A stretch of DNA of 64,000 bases, from the NCBI GenBank assembly GCA_017592665.1, contig JAGFNW010000024.1, positions 62,001-126,000 of the forward strand, read 5' to 3'. This DNA comes from Streptosporangiaceae bacterium NEAU-GS5. Its GTDB lineage: Bacteria > Actinomycetota > Actinomycetes > Streptosporangiales > Streptosporangiaceae. The position numbers and the translations under genes are program-made. The notes under the pieces were generated by a model, which saw only the letters and a list, made by a program, of their open reading frames with translations, was not told where the DNA came from and made no database searches. Positions 3,423-24,340 of the stretch are shown piece by piece; position 1 is the first letter of the stretch, and each line of letters begins with the position of its first letter.

Positions 3423-4208
3423 GTGACTATGGTGAGCACGCCCAGACCGCCGACTCCGCATCCGTCCGGCGCCAAGCCGCCCGCGATCCCGCGCGAGCTG
3501 ATCCCGCGGCACGTCGCGATCGTCATGGACGGCAACGGCCGCTGGGCCAAGACGCGTGGGCTGCCCCGCACCGAGGGCCACAAAATGGGCGAGGCCTCGC
3601 TGTTCGACGTGATCGAAGGCGCCATCGAGATCGGCGTCCCCTATCTGTCGGCGTACGCGTTCTCGACCGAGAACTGGAAGCGCTCTCCGGACGAGGTGCG
3701 CTTCCTCATGGGGTTCAACCGCGACGTGATCCGCCGCCGCCGCGACCAGCTCAACGAGATGGGCGTGCGCGTCCGCTGGGCCGGCCGTCCGGGACGCCTC
3801 TGGAAGAGCGTGATCAAGGAGCTGCAGGACGCCGAGGAGATGACGGTCGGCAACTCCACGCTGACGCTCCAGTTCTGCGTCAACTACGGCGGCCGGGCCG
3901 AGGTCGTGGACGCCGCGGTCCGGCTGGCCGCCGACATCGCCGCCGGCCGGGTCAAGCCCGGCCGGGTGTCGGAGTCGGTCTTCGCCCGCTACCTCTACCA
4001 GCCGGAAATCCCCGACGTCGACCTGTTCCTGCGCCCTTCCGGCGAGCAGCGCACGTCCAACTACCTGATCTGGCAGGCCGCGTACGCCGAGATGGTCTTC
4101 CAGGACCGCCTCTGGCCCGACTTCGACCGCCGCGACCTCTGGGAGGCCTGCGAGGTCTTCGCCAAACGCGACCGCCGCTACGGCGGCGCCCTTCCCAACC
4201 AGGTCTGA
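3423..4208 (+). CDS. uppS: Isoprenyl (undecaprenyl-type) diphosphate synthase
   Basis: This is a cis-prenyltransferase making the polyprenyl diphosphate carrier for cell-wall synthesis. The signature [14 protein letters not shown] contains the catalytic Asp of the diphosphate site. [13 protein letters not shown] and the C-terminal [15 protein letters not shown] and WPDF motifs are all intact. The GTG at 3423 or the ATG at 3429 could start it, changing only two residues. It ends exactly one base before the stop of the convergent PadR gene, leaving no terminator space. It probably shares a transcript with recO. Confidence 0.95.
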
Positions 4209-4547
4209 TCAGCTGGTGGCCGGCCACGGGGTGCTGCCGAGGGCGGCCGAGATGGTCGCGGCGAACTCCTGCCAGCGCTGGCGCTCGCCGTTCAGCGAGC
4301 GGCGCCCGGCGTCGGTGAGTTCATAGGTGCGGCGCCGCCGCCCGGCCACCACCGACCAGCTCCCGGCGATCAGCCCGGCCTTCTCCAGCCGGTGCAGCGC
4401 CGGATAGATCGTTCCAGTCGGGAGGTCGAGCCGTCCGTGCGTGTTCTCACGCAGGGTCTCCTTGACCGCGTAGCCATGCAGCGGTCCGTCTTCCAGAGTG
4501 GCCAGCATCAGCCCGTCCAGATGCCCTTTGAGCACCTCGGCTCTCAT
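4209..4547 (-). CDS. PadR-family transcriptional regulator
   Basis: This protein of 112 residues has a winged-helix PadR pattern: LKGHLDGLMLATLEDGPLHGY, then a helix-turn-helix with GTIYPALHRLEKAGLI and the wing RRRRTYELTDAGRR. Members of the family repress genes and respond to phenolics or drugs. The MRAEVLKG start at 4547 is preferred over an ATG nine bases further upstream because the family usually begins there, but no strong ribosome site is seen for either. It is convergent with uppS. No transporter or target lies beside it, so its ligand is unknown. Confidence 0.85.
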   Translation of the reverse strand: MRAEVLKGHLDGLMLATLEDGPLHGYAVKETLRENTHGRLDLPTGTIYPALHRLEKAGLIAGSWSVVAGRRRRTYELTDAGRRSLNGERQRWQEFAATISAALGSTPWPATS

Positions 4548-4610
4548 AGGTAGCAACGCTACACCGCCCTACGGAAGCAGGGCCAGCGCCGTGGTGGGCT
4601 CGAGGTTGCC

Positions 4611-5159
4611 TCAGGCGCGGCGGCGGGCGCGGTAGGCGGCGACGTGGATGCGGTTTCCGCAGGTGCGGCTGTCGCAGTAGACGCGGGAGCGGTTGCGGGA
4701 CTCGTCGACGAAGACGTGCGAGCAGTCGGGGGCGGCGCACACGCGCAGCCGCTCCCACTCGTCCTCGACGAGCACGTGCGCGAGCGACACCCCGCAGTCG
4801 GCCGCCAGGTGCTCGGCCACCGACGCGCCGGGCGCGTGATAGTGGATGTGCAGCGAGAACCCGTCGTGCTCGGTCAGGTTGGGGGTGATGCGGGTGCGGC
4901 CGAGCAGCGCGTTCAACTGGGAGACGGCCGTCGGCTGGTCGGGCGCGTGGAAGACCGCGTGGAACGCCGACCGCACGGCCCTGACCTCGGCGAGGTCGGC
5001 CGGATTCAGATATTCCACGCCGCTGACCTGATGGCGCAGGATGAAGGCCTCGAGCTCCTCGAGGGTGGCCAGGCTGTCACGCCCGTCCGCCTCCGGCGAC
5101 GTGTTGATCAGATCGACCACGACGGCAAGCGCGTGCACCATGTCATGGCTGAACGGCAT
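4611..5159 (-). CDS. CGNR zinc-finger / ABATE-domain protein
   Basis: The 182-residue product has the two-part architecture of the CGNR family. An N-terminal ABATE-like helical region (LVNT-like VDLINTSPEADG) is followed by a C-terminal zinc finger with C-x4-C and the signature YCDSRTCGNRIHVAAYRAR. These proteins are thought to be transcription regulators, though few have been studied. The start MPFSHDM is chosen because it follows a strong GAGGGAGGG ribosome site. It lies 44 bp downstream of zur on the same strand and may be read from that transcript. Confidence 0.8.
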   Translation of the reverse strand: MPFSHDMVHALAVVVDLINTSPEADGRDSLATLEELEAFILRHQVSGVEYLNPADLAEVRAVRSAFHAVFHAPDQPTAVSQLNALLGRTRITPNLTEHDGFSLHIHYHAPGASVAEHLAADCGVSLAHVLVEDEWERLRVCAAPDCSHVFVDESRNRSRVYCDSRTCGNRIHVAAYRARRRA

Positions 5160-19418: not shown

Positions 19419-20222
19419 ATGCGATCGGGGACGGCCCTTTGGCGTTCCATGGGTCTGGTGCTGCTGACGGCGGCGTGTAGCGCGCCCGCGGGGGTGGCCG
19501 GGGTCAGCACGGAGTCCTCCGGTCCTAGGCCGAGTGCGGTCCCCTCGGCCTCGCATGTCGCCGCCCCCGTCCGCCCGACGGCCGCCGATCCCGTACGGCT
19601 CCCGCCGCCCAAGGTCTCGCCGTACAAGTACGCGTTCCCGGTCGCCGGCTGCCACGTCACGTACGCCCGCAAGCTGCTCGTGCTGCCCAAGACGACGATC
19701 TGGGCGGCGAAGGGCTGCGCGTTCGTGGCGCCGGTCGCCGGCGTCGTACGCGAGGTCAACATCCAGAACCGGTGGGCCCCCTCGACCGACCGCGGCGCCG
19801 ACCGCGAGGGCAGGTTCGTGACCGTGCTCGGCGACGACGGCGTGCTCTACCTCGGCGGCCACCTCGACTCGGTCGAGGCCGGCATCCGCCCGGGGGTGAA
19901 GGTCAAGGCCGGTCAGCGGCTGGGCCGGGTGGGTAATTCGGGCAACGCCCGCGACACCGGGCCCAACCTCTACTTCGCGATCACCTGGGTCGCCCCGCCG
20001 AAGTTCTGGTGGATCCGGCGCGGCATGGTCGAGCCGTGGAACTACCTCGACGCCTGGTGGGCCGGCAATCCGACGTTCTCGCCGCGCGCGGCCATGGCCT
20101 CGGTGCGCAAGCGCGTCGGCGCCCTGCCGGCCTGCTCCCAGCTGTGCGCGGGCAAGCCGCCGGCGGCACAGCCGCACAAGACGCACGGCCCCAATCCGGA
20201 GATACCCAACCTCGGCGACTGA
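19419..20222 (+). CDS. Degenerate M23 (LytM)-fold lipoprotein
   Basis: The product (267 residues from the ATG at 19419) has a signal peptide with lipobox LTAAC, a Pro/Ala-rich linker, then a LytM-like beta-barrel: [68 protein letters not shown]. An active M23 peptidase needs a His-Asp pair and a HxH motif. Here the last motif reads NLY instead of HLH, so it is probably a non-catalytic cell-wall-binding relative, as in LytM factors that activate other hydrolases. Start choice is uncertain, with a GTG at 19410 also in frame. It ends 35 bp before dnaG. Confidence 0.72.
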
Positions 20223-20257
20223 CACCTGGACCACCGGGTTCCGAATAGACTTTCGTC

Positions 20258-23056
20258 GTGGCCGGGCGCATCAGTGACGAGGACATCGCGCTCGTACGGG
20301 AGCGCTCGCCGATCGCCGACGTGATCGGCGAGTATGTGCAGCTGCGCAACGCCGGCGGCGGCAATCTGAAGGGCCTGTGCCCCTTCCACGACGAGAAGTC
20401 CCCCTCCTTCAACGTCACCCCGACCAACGGTCTCTACTACTGCCTTGCCGGCGAGACCAGAGTGATGACCTGGTCCGGCGTCAGGCCGATCAGCGAGCTC
20501 GCGGGCGGCGTGCACAGGATCCTGGCCGCCGACGGCACGTGGGTCGACGCCCCCTTCAAGTCGTTCGGGGTCCAGCGGCTCATGCGCGTCGTTCTCAGCC
20601 GCAACGGACAGCAGAAGGAGATCTTCGCGACTCCCGAGCACCGCTGGTTCGTGCGGTCAGGGAAGGACCGGAGCCGCCGGCGCGAGCTGACGACGCAGGA
20701 GCTGCGCTCCGAGCACCGTCTGGTCGCCGTGTTCCCCGCCACCAGGGTGAGGAGAACCACGCCGTCGCCCTTCGGGATCGCGCACGGGATCACCTTCGGC
20801 GACGGCACGCGCTGCGGCTCCGGATCGAGGGCGACACTGGATCCGATCAAGGATGTGGCGCTGCTCAAGTGGTTCCCGCACAGTCTGGTGACCGACGGCG
20901 GCACTGATCGGCGCCGCCAGCTGCTCGTCCACCACCTCCCGGGGTTCTTCAAGAGCCTTCCTCCGCTCGACGAGTCCGTCTCCTACCTGAGCGGGTGGCT
21001 GGCCGGATACCTGGCCGCTGACGGGCACGTGGCCAAGGACGGCACCGTCATGCTCAACTGCGCCGACAGGGACGTGCTGGAGTTCGTCCGGCTGGTCTGC
21101 ACCCGGCTGGGGATCGGCACGTTCGGCGTCACCGAGCAGATCCGGGTTGGATTTCCCGGCCGTGAACCGAGTTCGATCTTCCGGATCCACTTCGTCAACG
21201 ACGACATGACCGAGGACTTCTTCCTCCTGGATGAGCACCGCATCCGTTTCCGGGCGAGCACCAAGGCGTTTTCGCGGAAGTCGTGGACGGTGCGGTCGGT
21301 CGAGGAGACCGACAGGGTCGAGGAGGTGTTCTGCGCGACCGTCGAGCACGGTCATGCGTTCGTCCTCGAAGACAACATTCTGACCGGCAACTGCTTCGGG
21401 TGTGGGGAGGGTGGCGACTCGATCACCTTCGTGCAGAAGATCGACGGGTTGTCGTTCGCCGAGGCGGTCGAGCGGCTGGCGGGGCGGGGCGGCATCCAGC
21501 TCCGCTACGAGCAGGGCGGCTATGTCCCGGGGCGGCAGCAGGGCGAGCGGTCGAGGCTGGTCGAGGCGCATCGAGCCGCCGCCGAGTTCTACGCGGCCCA
21601 GCTGGTCGGGCCGGACGCGGGGGTGGCCAGGCGGTTCCTGTCGGAGCGCGGGTTCGAGCGGGTCGACGCCGAGCATTTCGGGGTCGGCTACGCGCCGGCC
21701 GAGTGGGATGCGCTGTCGCGCCACCTGATGGGGCGCGGGTTCACGGCCCAGGAGCTGATCAAGGGCGGGATCTCGCGCGAGGGCCGGCGCGGTCCGATCG
21801 ACCGGTTCCGCGGCCGGCTGGTGTGGCCCATCCGCGACATCACGGGCGACACGATCGGCTTCGGCGCGCGCAAGCTGCTGGATTCCGACGACGGCCCCAA
21901 GTATCTGAACACCCCCGAGTCGCCGATCTATCACAAGAGCTCGGTCCTTTACGGGGTCGACCTGGCCAAACGTGAGATCTCCAAGCGCTCGCAGGTGGTC
22001 ATCGTCGAGGGCTACACCGACGTGATGGCCTGCCATCTGGCCGGGATCCCGACGGCCGTGGCCACGTGCGGCACGGCGTTCGGCGAGGAGCACATCAAGG
22101 TCCTGCGGCGGATCCTGTTCGACCAGGGCCAGGGCGAGGTGATCTTCACCTTCGACGGCGACTCGGCTGGGCAGAAGGCGGCGCTCCGCGCGTTCCAGGA
22201 CGAGCAGAAGTTCGTCACCCAGACGTTCGTGGCCGTGCAGCCCGACGGGCTCGACCCGTGCGATCTGCGGATAAAGCACGGCGACGCGGCCGTGCGCGAC
22301 CTGGTCGCCAGCCGCGATCCGCTGTTCGCGTTCGCCATCCGGAGCGCCATCGGGCGCTACGACATGAACACCAACGAGGGCAAGCTGTCCGCGCTCGACG
22401 CGGCGGCGCCCATCGTGGCGTCCATCAAGGATCGGGCGCTGCGCCAGATGTACGCCGTGGATCTCGACCGGTGGCTCGGTTTCATGAACGAGCGGTTCGT
22501 GGTCGAGCGGGTGGCCGAGATCGCCGCGCGTCCCGTGGCGGCCTCGCCTTCGGCCCCGGCGGCTCGCGGGCCGGTCCAGTCCGGTGAGCCGGGCAGTCCG
22601 TACGCCAAGCTCGAGGCCGAGGCGCTGAAGCTGGCCGTGCAGCGGCCGGCCCTGCTCGGCCCCGAGTTCGACGCGCTGGCCGCCGACACGTTCACGCAGC
22701 CGCAGCTGAGCGAGCTGTTCCTGCTGGTCGTGGAGATCGGTGGCACGGCGTCGGCCGGCGGTGGCGGGCGCGCGTGGGTGGAGCGGCTGCTGGCGGCCGC
22801 TCCCGACGAGCTGCGTCCGCTCATCACCCGGTTCGCGGTCGAGGAACTGCGCGTCATCTCCGAGGAGCGCTACGGCACGCAGGTGCTCGTCCGAATCCAG
22901 GAGATCGCCGTGGGGCGCACGCTCGACCGGCTGAAGGCGCGGATGCAGCGGATCAACCCGGTCGAAGAGCAGCAGGAGTACAACCGGATGTTCGGCGAAC
23001 TGGCCGCCCTGGAACAGCAGCGACGGGTCCTGAGAGAACGCGCGGCCGGGGCGTGA
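20258..23056 (+). CDS. dnaG: DNA primase DnaG, interrupted by an intein
   Basis: DnaG makes RNA primers for replication. The reading frame codes for 932 residues. Removing the in-frame intein (residues 62-378) leaves 615, the normal DnaG length. Exteins show the N-terminal CHC2 zinc domain ([13 protein letters not shown], then after splicing [11 protein letters not shown]), the RNA-polymerase core with TOPRIM motifs ([28 protein letters not shown]) and a C-terminal DnaB-interacting domain. The GTG start gives [26 protein letters not shown] element lies 7 bp before the GTG, so leaderless translation is possible. It sits in the classical dnaG-sigma order. Confidence 0.95.
20441..21391 (+). mobile_element. 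Intein with LAGLIDADG homing endonuclease, inserted in DnaG
   Basis: The 317-residue insert begins with the catalytic Cys of block A ([20 protein letters not shown]). It shows block B ATPEHRW (TxxH), two dodecapeptide endonuclease motifs ([13 protein letters not shown] at intein residues about 112-124, and [14 protein letters not shown] at about 184-197), block F ([20 protein letters not shown]) and block G ILTGN followed by +1 Cys. Both dodecapeptides keep an acidic residue, so the endonuclease may be active. The penultimate residue is Gly rather than the usual His. It interrupts the zinc ligands exactly before the Cys of CFGCG, so primase needs splicing to fold its zinc domain. Confidence 0.93.
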
Positions 23057-23188
23057 ATAACTTTACTTTCCACGCCGCACACGTCCCAAACATTGCCTTG
23101 ATATCGATCTGGTAATGACCTTCGGCTTACCAAGCGTGCCAAAAATAGGCCTGCCATTTTCTCACTCGTATACCGCAGACTGTGATGC

Positions 23189-24340
23189 GTGGGTGCATCG
23201 GTGCTGCCAAGCGGCCCGCCATCGGTAGACCAGGTGGCGGATCTCGTCGCGAGAGGAAGGGAGCGCGGAAGCGTCACGGTAGACGACGTGGCCGCCGCGC
23301 TCGACCGCTCCGAGCTGCCCGCAGACGCGCTCGAGCGCGTCGTGCGGATGCTCGCCGAAAACGGGGTTGAGGTGCTCGAGCCACAGGGCGACGAGGACGT
23401 TATCAAGCCCGACGAGGAGGATGTCGGCAAACGCGCGCCAACGAGTGACCTGGTCCGGATCTATCTGCGTGAGATCGGCAGGGTCCCCCTGCTGACCGCG
23501 GAGGAGGAGGTCGAGCTCGCCAAGGCCATCGAGGCGGGGCTGTTCGCCGAGGACAAGGTGTGCGCGAGCGCGGCCGTGCGGGTCGCCCGCCCCGAGCTCG
23601 AGGAGCTCATCTGGGAGGGCGTGCGCGCCAAGCAGCGGCTCATCGAGGCCAACCTGCGGCTCGTGGTGTCGATCGCGAAACGCTATGTGGGCCGCGGCAT
23701 GCTGTTCCTCGATCTGATCCAGGAGGGCAATCTCGGGCTCATCCGCGCGGTCGAGAAATTCGACTACACCAAGGGCTATAAGTTCTCGACGTACGCCACG
23801 TGGTGGATTCGCCAGGCGATCACCAGGGCGATCGCGGACCAGGCGCGGACCATTCGAATTCCCGTGCATATGGTCGAGACGATCAACAAATTAGTGCGGG
23901 TGCAGCGCCAGCTCCACCAGGACCTCGGCCGGGAGCCCGCGCCCGAGGAGATCGCCGCGGAGATGGATCTGCCGATCGAGCGGGTCGTGGAGATCCAGCG
24001 GATCGCCCAGGAGCCGGTCTCGCTTCAGTCGCCCATCGGCGAAGAGGACTCCGACCTCGGTGACTTCATCGAAGACGCCGACGCCGTGGTGCCCATCGAG
24101 GCGGCCGCGTTCATCATGCTGCAGGATCAGCTGGACGACATTCTGGCCACGCTGTCCGAGCGCGAGCAGCGGATCATCCAGCTGCGGTTCGGGCTGGCCG
24201 ACGGCCACCCGCGCACGCTGGAGGAGGTCGGCCGCGAGTTCGGCGTGACCAGGGAGCGGATCCGGCAGATCGAGTCCAAAACCCTCGCCAAGCTGCGGCA
24301 CCCGACCCGGGCCCAGATGCTCCGCGATTATCTCGACTGA
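23189..24340 (+). CDS. RNA polymerase sigma-70 factor, primary (HrdB/SigA) type
   Basis: The 383-residue product has a short region 1.1-like N-terminus ([26 protein letters not shown]), region 1.2 ([29 protein letters not shown]), region 2 ([56 protein letters not shown]), region 3 and region 4 ([25 protein letters not shown]). Its nearness to dnaG recalls the macromolecular-synthesis operon and supports a primary or HrdB-like role. It starts at GTG 23189. The 132-bp gap after dnaG is relatively AT-rich and may hold its own promoter. A strong hairpin follows its stop. Confidence 0.9.

Follow-up and report, generated by a model that had tools for sequence, protein, structure and literature searches.

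The 64,000-nucleotide stretch of Streptosporangiaceae bacterium NEAU-GS5 analysed here (the window; contig JAGFNW010000024.1, positions 62,001 to 126,000) carries a gene for the DNA primase DnaG that is interrupted in frame by an intein. The precursor gene lies at window positions 20258..23056 on the forward strand, as do all of its features given below, and consists of 932 codons and a stop, with a GTG start. It encodes an N-extein of 61 residues (20258..20440), recognized by its match to PF01807 and by alignment with an intein-less DnaG, which holds the zinc ligands C41 (20378-20380) and H44 (20387-20389); an intein of 317 residues, C1 to N317 (20441..21391), placed by the same alignment and by a fold model that matches inteins; and a C-extein (21392..23053) that opens with C379 (21392-21394), both the +1 nucleophile and zinc ligand 3, followed by ligand 4, C382 (21401-21403). 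The DNAG_N, Toprim, and DnaB-binding domains that follow are all present, as in bacterial DnaG. The CHC2 zinc finger is split into two stretches and is whole only across both flanks of the intein, which separates C41 and H44 from C379 and C382.

Relative to an intein-less DnaG of the same bacterial family (L011, 612 aa), the addition spans C62-N378 exactly (nt 20441-21391). It is precisely missing from relatives, begins with a Cys after ...GLYY, and ends with Asn before the Cys of CFGC. In the precursor, Cys1 occupies the place of the third zinc ligand, and the Pfam CHC2 match, covering precursor residues 6-64, extends over it. The computed masses are 102.8 kDa for the 932-residue precursor, 35.6 kDa for the 317-residue intein, and 67.2 kDa for the predicted 615-residue spliced DnaG. 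Neither a second dnaG nor a further copy of the DnaG intein was found in the genome of the window (9.96 Mb in 127 contigs, 99.4% complete). Because the zinc ligands are separated and no second dnaG was found, splicing of the precursor would almost certainly be required for an active primase.

An earlier, sequence-only reading of this DNA had placed a 317-residue intein with two LAGLIDADG-type motifs right before the Cys of CFGC(G), where it would split the CHC2 ligands and make primase dependent on splicing. The alignment with intein-less DnaG bears out the position, both motifs keep their Asp (121 and 194) so that the endonuclease looks intact, the dependence is supported by the split ligands and by the single dnaG, and computation confirms the precursor and product sizes of 932 and 615 residues. 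Comparison with other DnaG insertion sites, which that reading had proposed, found the identical codon occupied in other genomes, and this recurrence speaks strongly against the misassembly that it had considered. That reading had overlooked the mixed class 1 and class 3 signature, the kinship with phage reductase inteins, the graded loss of the endonuclease among relatives, and a class 3 intein in DnaB of the same genome, all described below.

To describe the splicing residues we aligned 78 members of the intein family: the window, L006, L007, all 46 loci from named genomes, and 29 of the 45 viral loci. Cys1 (20441..20443), the class 1 nucleophile, is invariant in all 78, as are T64, H67 (B10), and W69 (B12) of the block B motif TPEHRW (20630..20647), Cys298 at position 4 of block F (21332..21334), and Asn317; in the block G end T315-G316-N317 (21383..21391), Thr is kept in 74 rows and Gly in 71. 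The endonuclease part has the two motifs with acidic residues that characterize LAGLIDADG enzymes, the first at 20771..20809 (Asp121 at 20801-20803, Asp in 68/78) and the second at 20987..21031 (Asp194 at 21020-21022, Asp in 69/78), where Pfam LAGLIDADG_3 scores above its cut-off. Nine naturally shortened inteins (135-207 aa) keep the same splicing residues without variation, Thr at G5 included. The conservation of Cys298 is partly selected, as one of the two search patterns contains the block-F Cys; the same Cys also occurs in inteins found independently of the patterns, namely the DnaG inteins of G242, G255, G305, G400, and G214 (the last in pieces) from a profile search, and all six phage reductase inteins examined among tblastn finds in 240 matched records. 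The register was set against structures in the Protein Data Bank (PDB), where Cys298 aligns with the Asp of block F in the Ssp DnaB intein (1mi8) and W69 with the Trp engineered into gp41-1 (6riz).

The penultimate residue had been reported as Gly instead of His, which could be taken as the sign of a weak splicer. The residue is indeed Gly, though this is no defect: Gly is the family norm, found in 38/38 DnaG rows and in 71 of the 78 members, and the phage Bethlehem RDF intein, which also has a penultimate Gly, splices and is slowed when Gly is changed to His (PMC5050341). On these two grounds we rejected Gly316 as a mark of poor splicing. The block-F His, His305 in the window (21353..21355), is present in 36/38 DnaG rows and in 48/78 of the family, and could assist in the DnaG inteins.

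W69, Cys298, and T315 together form a complete WCT triplet (B12, F4, G5), so that class 1 marks (Cys1 and TxxH) and the full class 3 signature coexist in one intein. As for class 1, the Cys or Ser expected at position 1 and the TxxH of block B are both there, and the Asp at F4, the commonest class 1 state and not a defining one, is replaced by Cys298 in every row; Cys at F4 is described as the second commonest state after Asp (PMC4031507). As for class 3, the signature is given as Trp at B12, Cys at F4, and Thr at G5 with no nucleophile at position 1 (PMC3196547, PMC5050341), and WCT is stated to occur only in class 3 inteins (PMC7664689), which are without Cys1 and generally without the Thr of TxxH (PMC6195587). 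The triplet is present here, and Cys1 is present with it throughout the family.

Profile comparisons bear on the lineage of the intein. With five phage ribonucleotide reductase inteins the family profile aligned along the entire intein at an hhalign probability of 100 (E 2.4e-43); the nine shortened inteins gave 99.1 with the same set. Against six class 3 DnaB inteins the family reached 83.8, and a further comparison with class 3 DnaB inteins gave 16.1, both for matches lying mainly in the endonuclease; the splicing part, as represented by the nine shortened inteins, gave 1.7. With a limit of E 10, the profile of the nine brought up 21 PDB sequences, none of them a chain of the class 3 inteins DnaBi1 or MchDnaB1; these matches include engineered gp41-1 and inteins regarded as class 1. 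By profile, the window intein thus appears to be kin to phage ribonucleotide reductase inteins and not to class 3 DnaB inteins, which is evidence against its membership in the monophyletic class 3 clade. We rejected the WCT triplet as proof of class 3 on account of Cys1 and of the profile link to phage reductase inteins.

The phage reductase inteins (Thermobifida phage P318, Vibrio phage ICP1 nrdA, Corynebacterium phage Stickynote, and others) are homologous to the window intein over the whole length and share with it Cys1, TxxH, the block-F Cys, Thr at G5, and Gly at G6 in 6/6 examined; they differ in host protein, in having Phe or Tyr at B12 in five of six (Trp in P318 only), and in ending with Gln in five of six. 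From this distribution, it looks as if the WCT triplet was assembled stepwise within a class 1 lineage. The mycobacterial class 3 DnaB inteins (M. smegmatis DnaBi1, 6bs8; M. chimaera MchDnaB1, 6rix) share the WCT triplet, a primosome host, and the Hint fold with the window intein, but have Ala1, DxxH, a His-Asn end, and Ser+1, and show no close profile kinship in the splicing part. In engineered gp41-1 (6riz), Trp, Cys, and Thr stand at the same three places in a class 1 background; there the triplet was grafted and Cys1 removed, giving mainly cleavage, whereas the window intein retains Cys1 alongside WCT (PMC7664689).

Same-site DnaG inteins occur sporadically in Actinomycetota. Of the 46 loci from named genomes, 35 are DnaG genes interrupted at the same codon, and all 35 belong to this phylum, with hosts among Nonomuraea, Nocardiopsis, Streptomyces, Actinoplanes, Actinoallomurus, Geodermatophilaceae, an Acidimicrobiia metagenome-assembled genome (MAG), and others. 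The remaining 11 include six with an intein before CHHN (L065, the one tested, is RtcB) as well as ribonucleotide reductases (L067 and L074 tested), so that the family precedes a Cys in RtcB, in ribonucleotide reductase, and in a viral primase too. Among 200 genomes of the same bacterial family, 11, counting that of the window, carry the intein in DnaG (matches in G161, G185, and G195 stand outside this count), and the intein is missing from 182 of 193 matched DnaGs; 394 genomes of the class gave 10 matches, again counting the window's own, nine in DnaG (G214 in pieces) and one in an RtcB-like gene.

The closest of the 45 viral loci (L082, 48%; IMGVR_UViG_3300042540_001044, 4001-4969, from IMG/VR) is a DnaG-type primase whose intein sits at the matching place of the zinc motif (CWFH...GALGVFN, intein, CFVCG), and it is possible that such a viral primase intein is a carrier between virus and host. 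A tblastn search of named phages matched 240 records; the best match listed was 34.7% in a reductase, and none of the 50 listed rows (some records appearing twice) was annotated 'primase'. L096 (IMGVR_UViG_3300045256_000188, from 4001), reductase-like by its flanks, holds two family inteins in direct succession, so that a single Cys is both the +1 residue of the first and Cys1 of the second, which ends before CGFVST. In L145 (G209:C23:109500-114500), an RtcB-like gene, the family intein has a frame change inside the endonuclease part, which is either real decay or a sequencing error.

The DnaG inteins range from 328 to 154 aa and comprise full inteins, inteins with decaying endonucleases, and mini-inteins, the endonuclease motifs being eroded or gone in several; such a decay series, traced from 321 down to 154 aa, has the pattern of a homing cycle. 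Four intein-bearing DnaGs of Actinoallomurus and Actinomadura (L047, L066, L078, and L079), among them the carriers of the two smallest DnaG inteins, also have a shortened stretch between ligands 2 and 3, reading FNVSNGLWH where others have FNVTPxxGxYY. Across 13 selected pairs of full-length inteins, one of which involves the window, dN/dS came to 0.04-0.25 for the splicing part and to 0.05-0.19 for the endonuclease; the latter range bears indirectly on whether the enzyme may cut an intein-less site. Taken with the same-codon insertion elsewhere and the lack of a second dnaG, these ratios argue that the insertion is neither chance nor misassembly.

Identity between inteins exceeds that between their DnaG hosts in 250 of 351 pairs. 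The window intein is 69-75% identical to those of Nocardiopsis and close kin (DnaG 56-57%) and 59% identical to that of the Acidimicrobiia MAG (DnaG 34%). In the intein tree the window groups with Nonomuraea inteins (support 100/98), and in the DnaG tree, whose intein-less rows were chosen as best hits, it lies in a clade (100/100) whose 11 other members are without the intein; the fewest presence changes on that tree are two. A history of transfer with losses would fit these observations.

The same genome carries another intein, outside the window and in the partner helicase: 405 aa long, it interrupts the P-loop of DnaB (G000:C44:90891-92105, reverse strand; locus L148 1279-2493, reverse strand). 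Its junctions (RPAIGK|ALALDT...PTHN|STLGLDF) and its blocks DAHHQW and RCVEVD give Ala1 and the WCT triplet, and its PDB matches are MchDnaB1 (E 3e-43) and DnaBi1 (E 7e-41); by its sequence it is assigned to class 3, of the mycobacterial DnaBi1 type. It retains Cys48, the disulfide partner in DnaBi1 (PMC6195587), along with the block-F Cys. A direct repeat of about 30 residues (RGGVAARSAPAPVAHAATVDRDEAAALGDH twice) lies between its splicing blocks. With a class 3 intein in DnaB and an intein in DnaG, both primosome partners would have to splice. At a threshold of E 1e-10, the DnaB intein has matches in 119 of the 200 family genomes, in 9 of the 11 with a DnaG intein and in 110 of the 189 others (one-sided Fisher p = 0.106); as this does not exceed chance, the idea that the two inteins are a selected pair was rejected. 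Among the nine, the sequence at the DnaB site was inspected in six (G000, G187, G003, G087, G101, and G164), with G090, G165, and G184 having weaker matches; direct readings of the P-loop site were obtained for 25 of 30 loci and for four further genomes.

An AlphaFold2 model of the DnaG precursor (mean pLDDT 85.9) has inteins as its top structural matches and shows the Hint fold. The best match is PI-PfuI (Z 22.1, rmsd 3.4, 302 aligned), which comes from a ribonucleotide reductase; Foldseek ranks TliVMA first. DnaBi1 (6bs8) matches with Z 17.4 (rmsd 2.0, 121 aligned) and NpuDnaE with Z 19.3, so the fold does not separate the classes. Residues 44-50, 52-59, and 380-386 of the precursor, around the zinc site and the junctions, have pLDDT <50.

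Elsewhere at the locus, a scan of 20150-23300 found no promoter or terminator, and a gene for a sigma-70-type sigma factor, named from its translation alone, lies 3' of dnaG (23189-24340, forward strand), an order that recalls the macromolecular synthesis operon. The genome also encodes an Rhs-type repeat protein (G000:C65:53236-53463, reverse strand; locus L150) with a Hint-like domain that matches an intein N-terminal model below cut-off and ends HN before the C-terminal part; it is not an intein in a housekeeping protein.

We consider it probable that the window holds a mobile, functional intein of the phage ribonucleotide-reductase-type lineage, set before the third zinc ligand of the only known DnaG of its host; the intein itself would most likely be a mobile, Cys1-initiated one of class 1. 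Several points weigh against this. Splicing of the DnaG intein is predicted from its sequence; Pfam Intein_splicing scores below its cut-off in the window intein (E 0.10 in the search of its own genome) and reaches E 0.001 in 48/78 members, and the intein_Nterm model finds only an Rhs protein at E <=0.1 in that genome. With a full WCT triplet, splicing could start at Cys298 rather than at Cys1. The route of Asn cyclisation is less plain where neither a block-F nor a penultimate His is present, as in 29/78 rows, for which reason the block-F His as a general substitute for the penultimate one was rejected. Values of dS up to 1.47 bring some pairs near saturation, and the Frankiaceae (intein 56%, DnaG 68%) and Quadrisphaera (intein 54%, DnaG 64%) have inteins less alike than their hosts, with the intein tree mostly tracking host families; recent transfer is therefore not general.

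The weak scores of the standard intein models might suggest a non-splicing remnant or an assembly artefact, which is very improbable given that every splicing residue is present, that the same site is occupied in other genomes, that this is the only primase gene found, and that the family is under purifying selection. Queried by itself against PDB sequences, the window intein produced a single match that looks like chance, and PHROGs gave nothing for a set of 11 inteins. Splicing of the class 3 type, in which Cys298 would attack the N-junction with the aid of W69 and T315 while Cys1 is a bystander or second choice, has in its favour the published signature at all three positions and the alignment of Cys298 with the block-F Cys of class 3 DnaB inteins. 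We nevertheless judge it quite unlikely, as Cys1 and the Thr of TxxH are invariant, where class 3 inteins are without the former and generally without the latter (PMC6195587), and as neither the profile comparison of the splicing part nor the PDB matches connect it with DnaBi1 or MchDnaB1. Somewhat easier to entertain, if still doubtful, is an intermediate form, a class 1 lineage that gained WCT independently while keeping Cys1, with either or both cysteines starting the reaction.

A further possibility concerns control: zinc or oxidants might hold the precursor and so pause primase, zinc being captured by Cys1 (after C41 and H44) or by Cys298. Such capture of a splicing cysteine is possible because Cys1 stands at the ligand-3 place, within the reach of the CHC2 match, and Cys+1 is ligand 3 of the product; DnaBi1 is inhibited by zinc and peroxide (PMC7360933, PMC6195587), zinc binds its block-F Cys in M. 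smegmatis (PMC7360933), and an intein of this type, with Cys48 and the block-F Cys, sits in DnaB of the same genome. By this analogy, zinc or redox control of splicing is plausible; as a conditional switch, however, we regard it as unlikely. The same geometry arises from any Cys1/Cys+1 intein placed before a ligand Cys, and the insertion site needs no regulatory reason, since the family precedes Cys in several dissimilar proteins and most DnaGs of the bacterial family are without the intein; the precursor model is, moreover, unsure at the zinc site.

For the reading we favour, that of a mobile class 1 intein, we infer the following course of splicing and homing. Cys1, set up by T64 and H67, would form the first thioester; Cys+1 would then accept the N-extein, and Asn317 would cyclise without a penultimate His, while Trp69, Cys298, and Thr315 would shape the active site, with Cys298 replacing the usual block-F Asp. 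Ligation would rebuild CxxH-x17-CxxC, with zinc bound and the primase active. The LAGLIDADG part would cut intein-less dnaG at the conserved zinc-motif codons and the element would spread among actinomycetes, perhaps via viruses; after fixation the endonuclease would decay and mini-inteins would remain.

Parts of this picture have precedents. The Bethlehem RDF intein, with Gly before its terminal Asn, is treated as a class 1 intein with an endonuclease, in another host protein, and mycobacteriophage TOPRIM (primase/topoisomerase) inteins occupy a primase-like host at the active site in eight cases, described there with no mention of a zinc motif (PMC5050341). DnaG of eubacteria appears in a table of intein hosts, in a row without site, class, or species (PMC5874633). 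In the titles, abstract openings, and passages of the open-licence PMC literature searched, there was no DnaG intein at the zinc site and no family with Cys1 and WCT, and the phrase 'DnaG intein' was absent from the papers of that collection. The window contains a genuine intein of a familiar sort, and inteins had been listed before for its host protein; within the reach of this literature, what seems new is a conserved Cys1 with WCT outside class 3, the exact zinc-ligand site shared with a viral primase, and the company of a class 3 DnaB intein. WCT inteins that retain the N-terminal nucleophile were reportedly discussed by Tori and Perler in 2011, and the hybrid signature may on that account already be in print.

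The DnaG site is notable because its +1 nucleophile doubles as a zinc ligand in an essential primase, for which no second copy was found, and because the cell also has a class 3 intein in the DnaB P-loop. The origin of class 3 inteins is unsettled: their descent from class 1 by simultaneous changes has been argued to be improbable, because a WCT graft on a class 1 intein without Cys1 gave mainly cleavage (PMC7664689). A natural family that conserves Cys1 and WCT together, in loci of bacteria and of viruses, opens a stepwise route to direct testing by two point mutants, and cautions that WCT alone is insufficient for filing an intein as class 3. If the intermediate form is true, WCT can form before the N-terminal nucleophile is lost, which would supply the step so far lacking from accounts of how class 3 arose, and two primosome partners would be locked by separately derived inteins whose cysteines could jointly answer zinc or oxidants.

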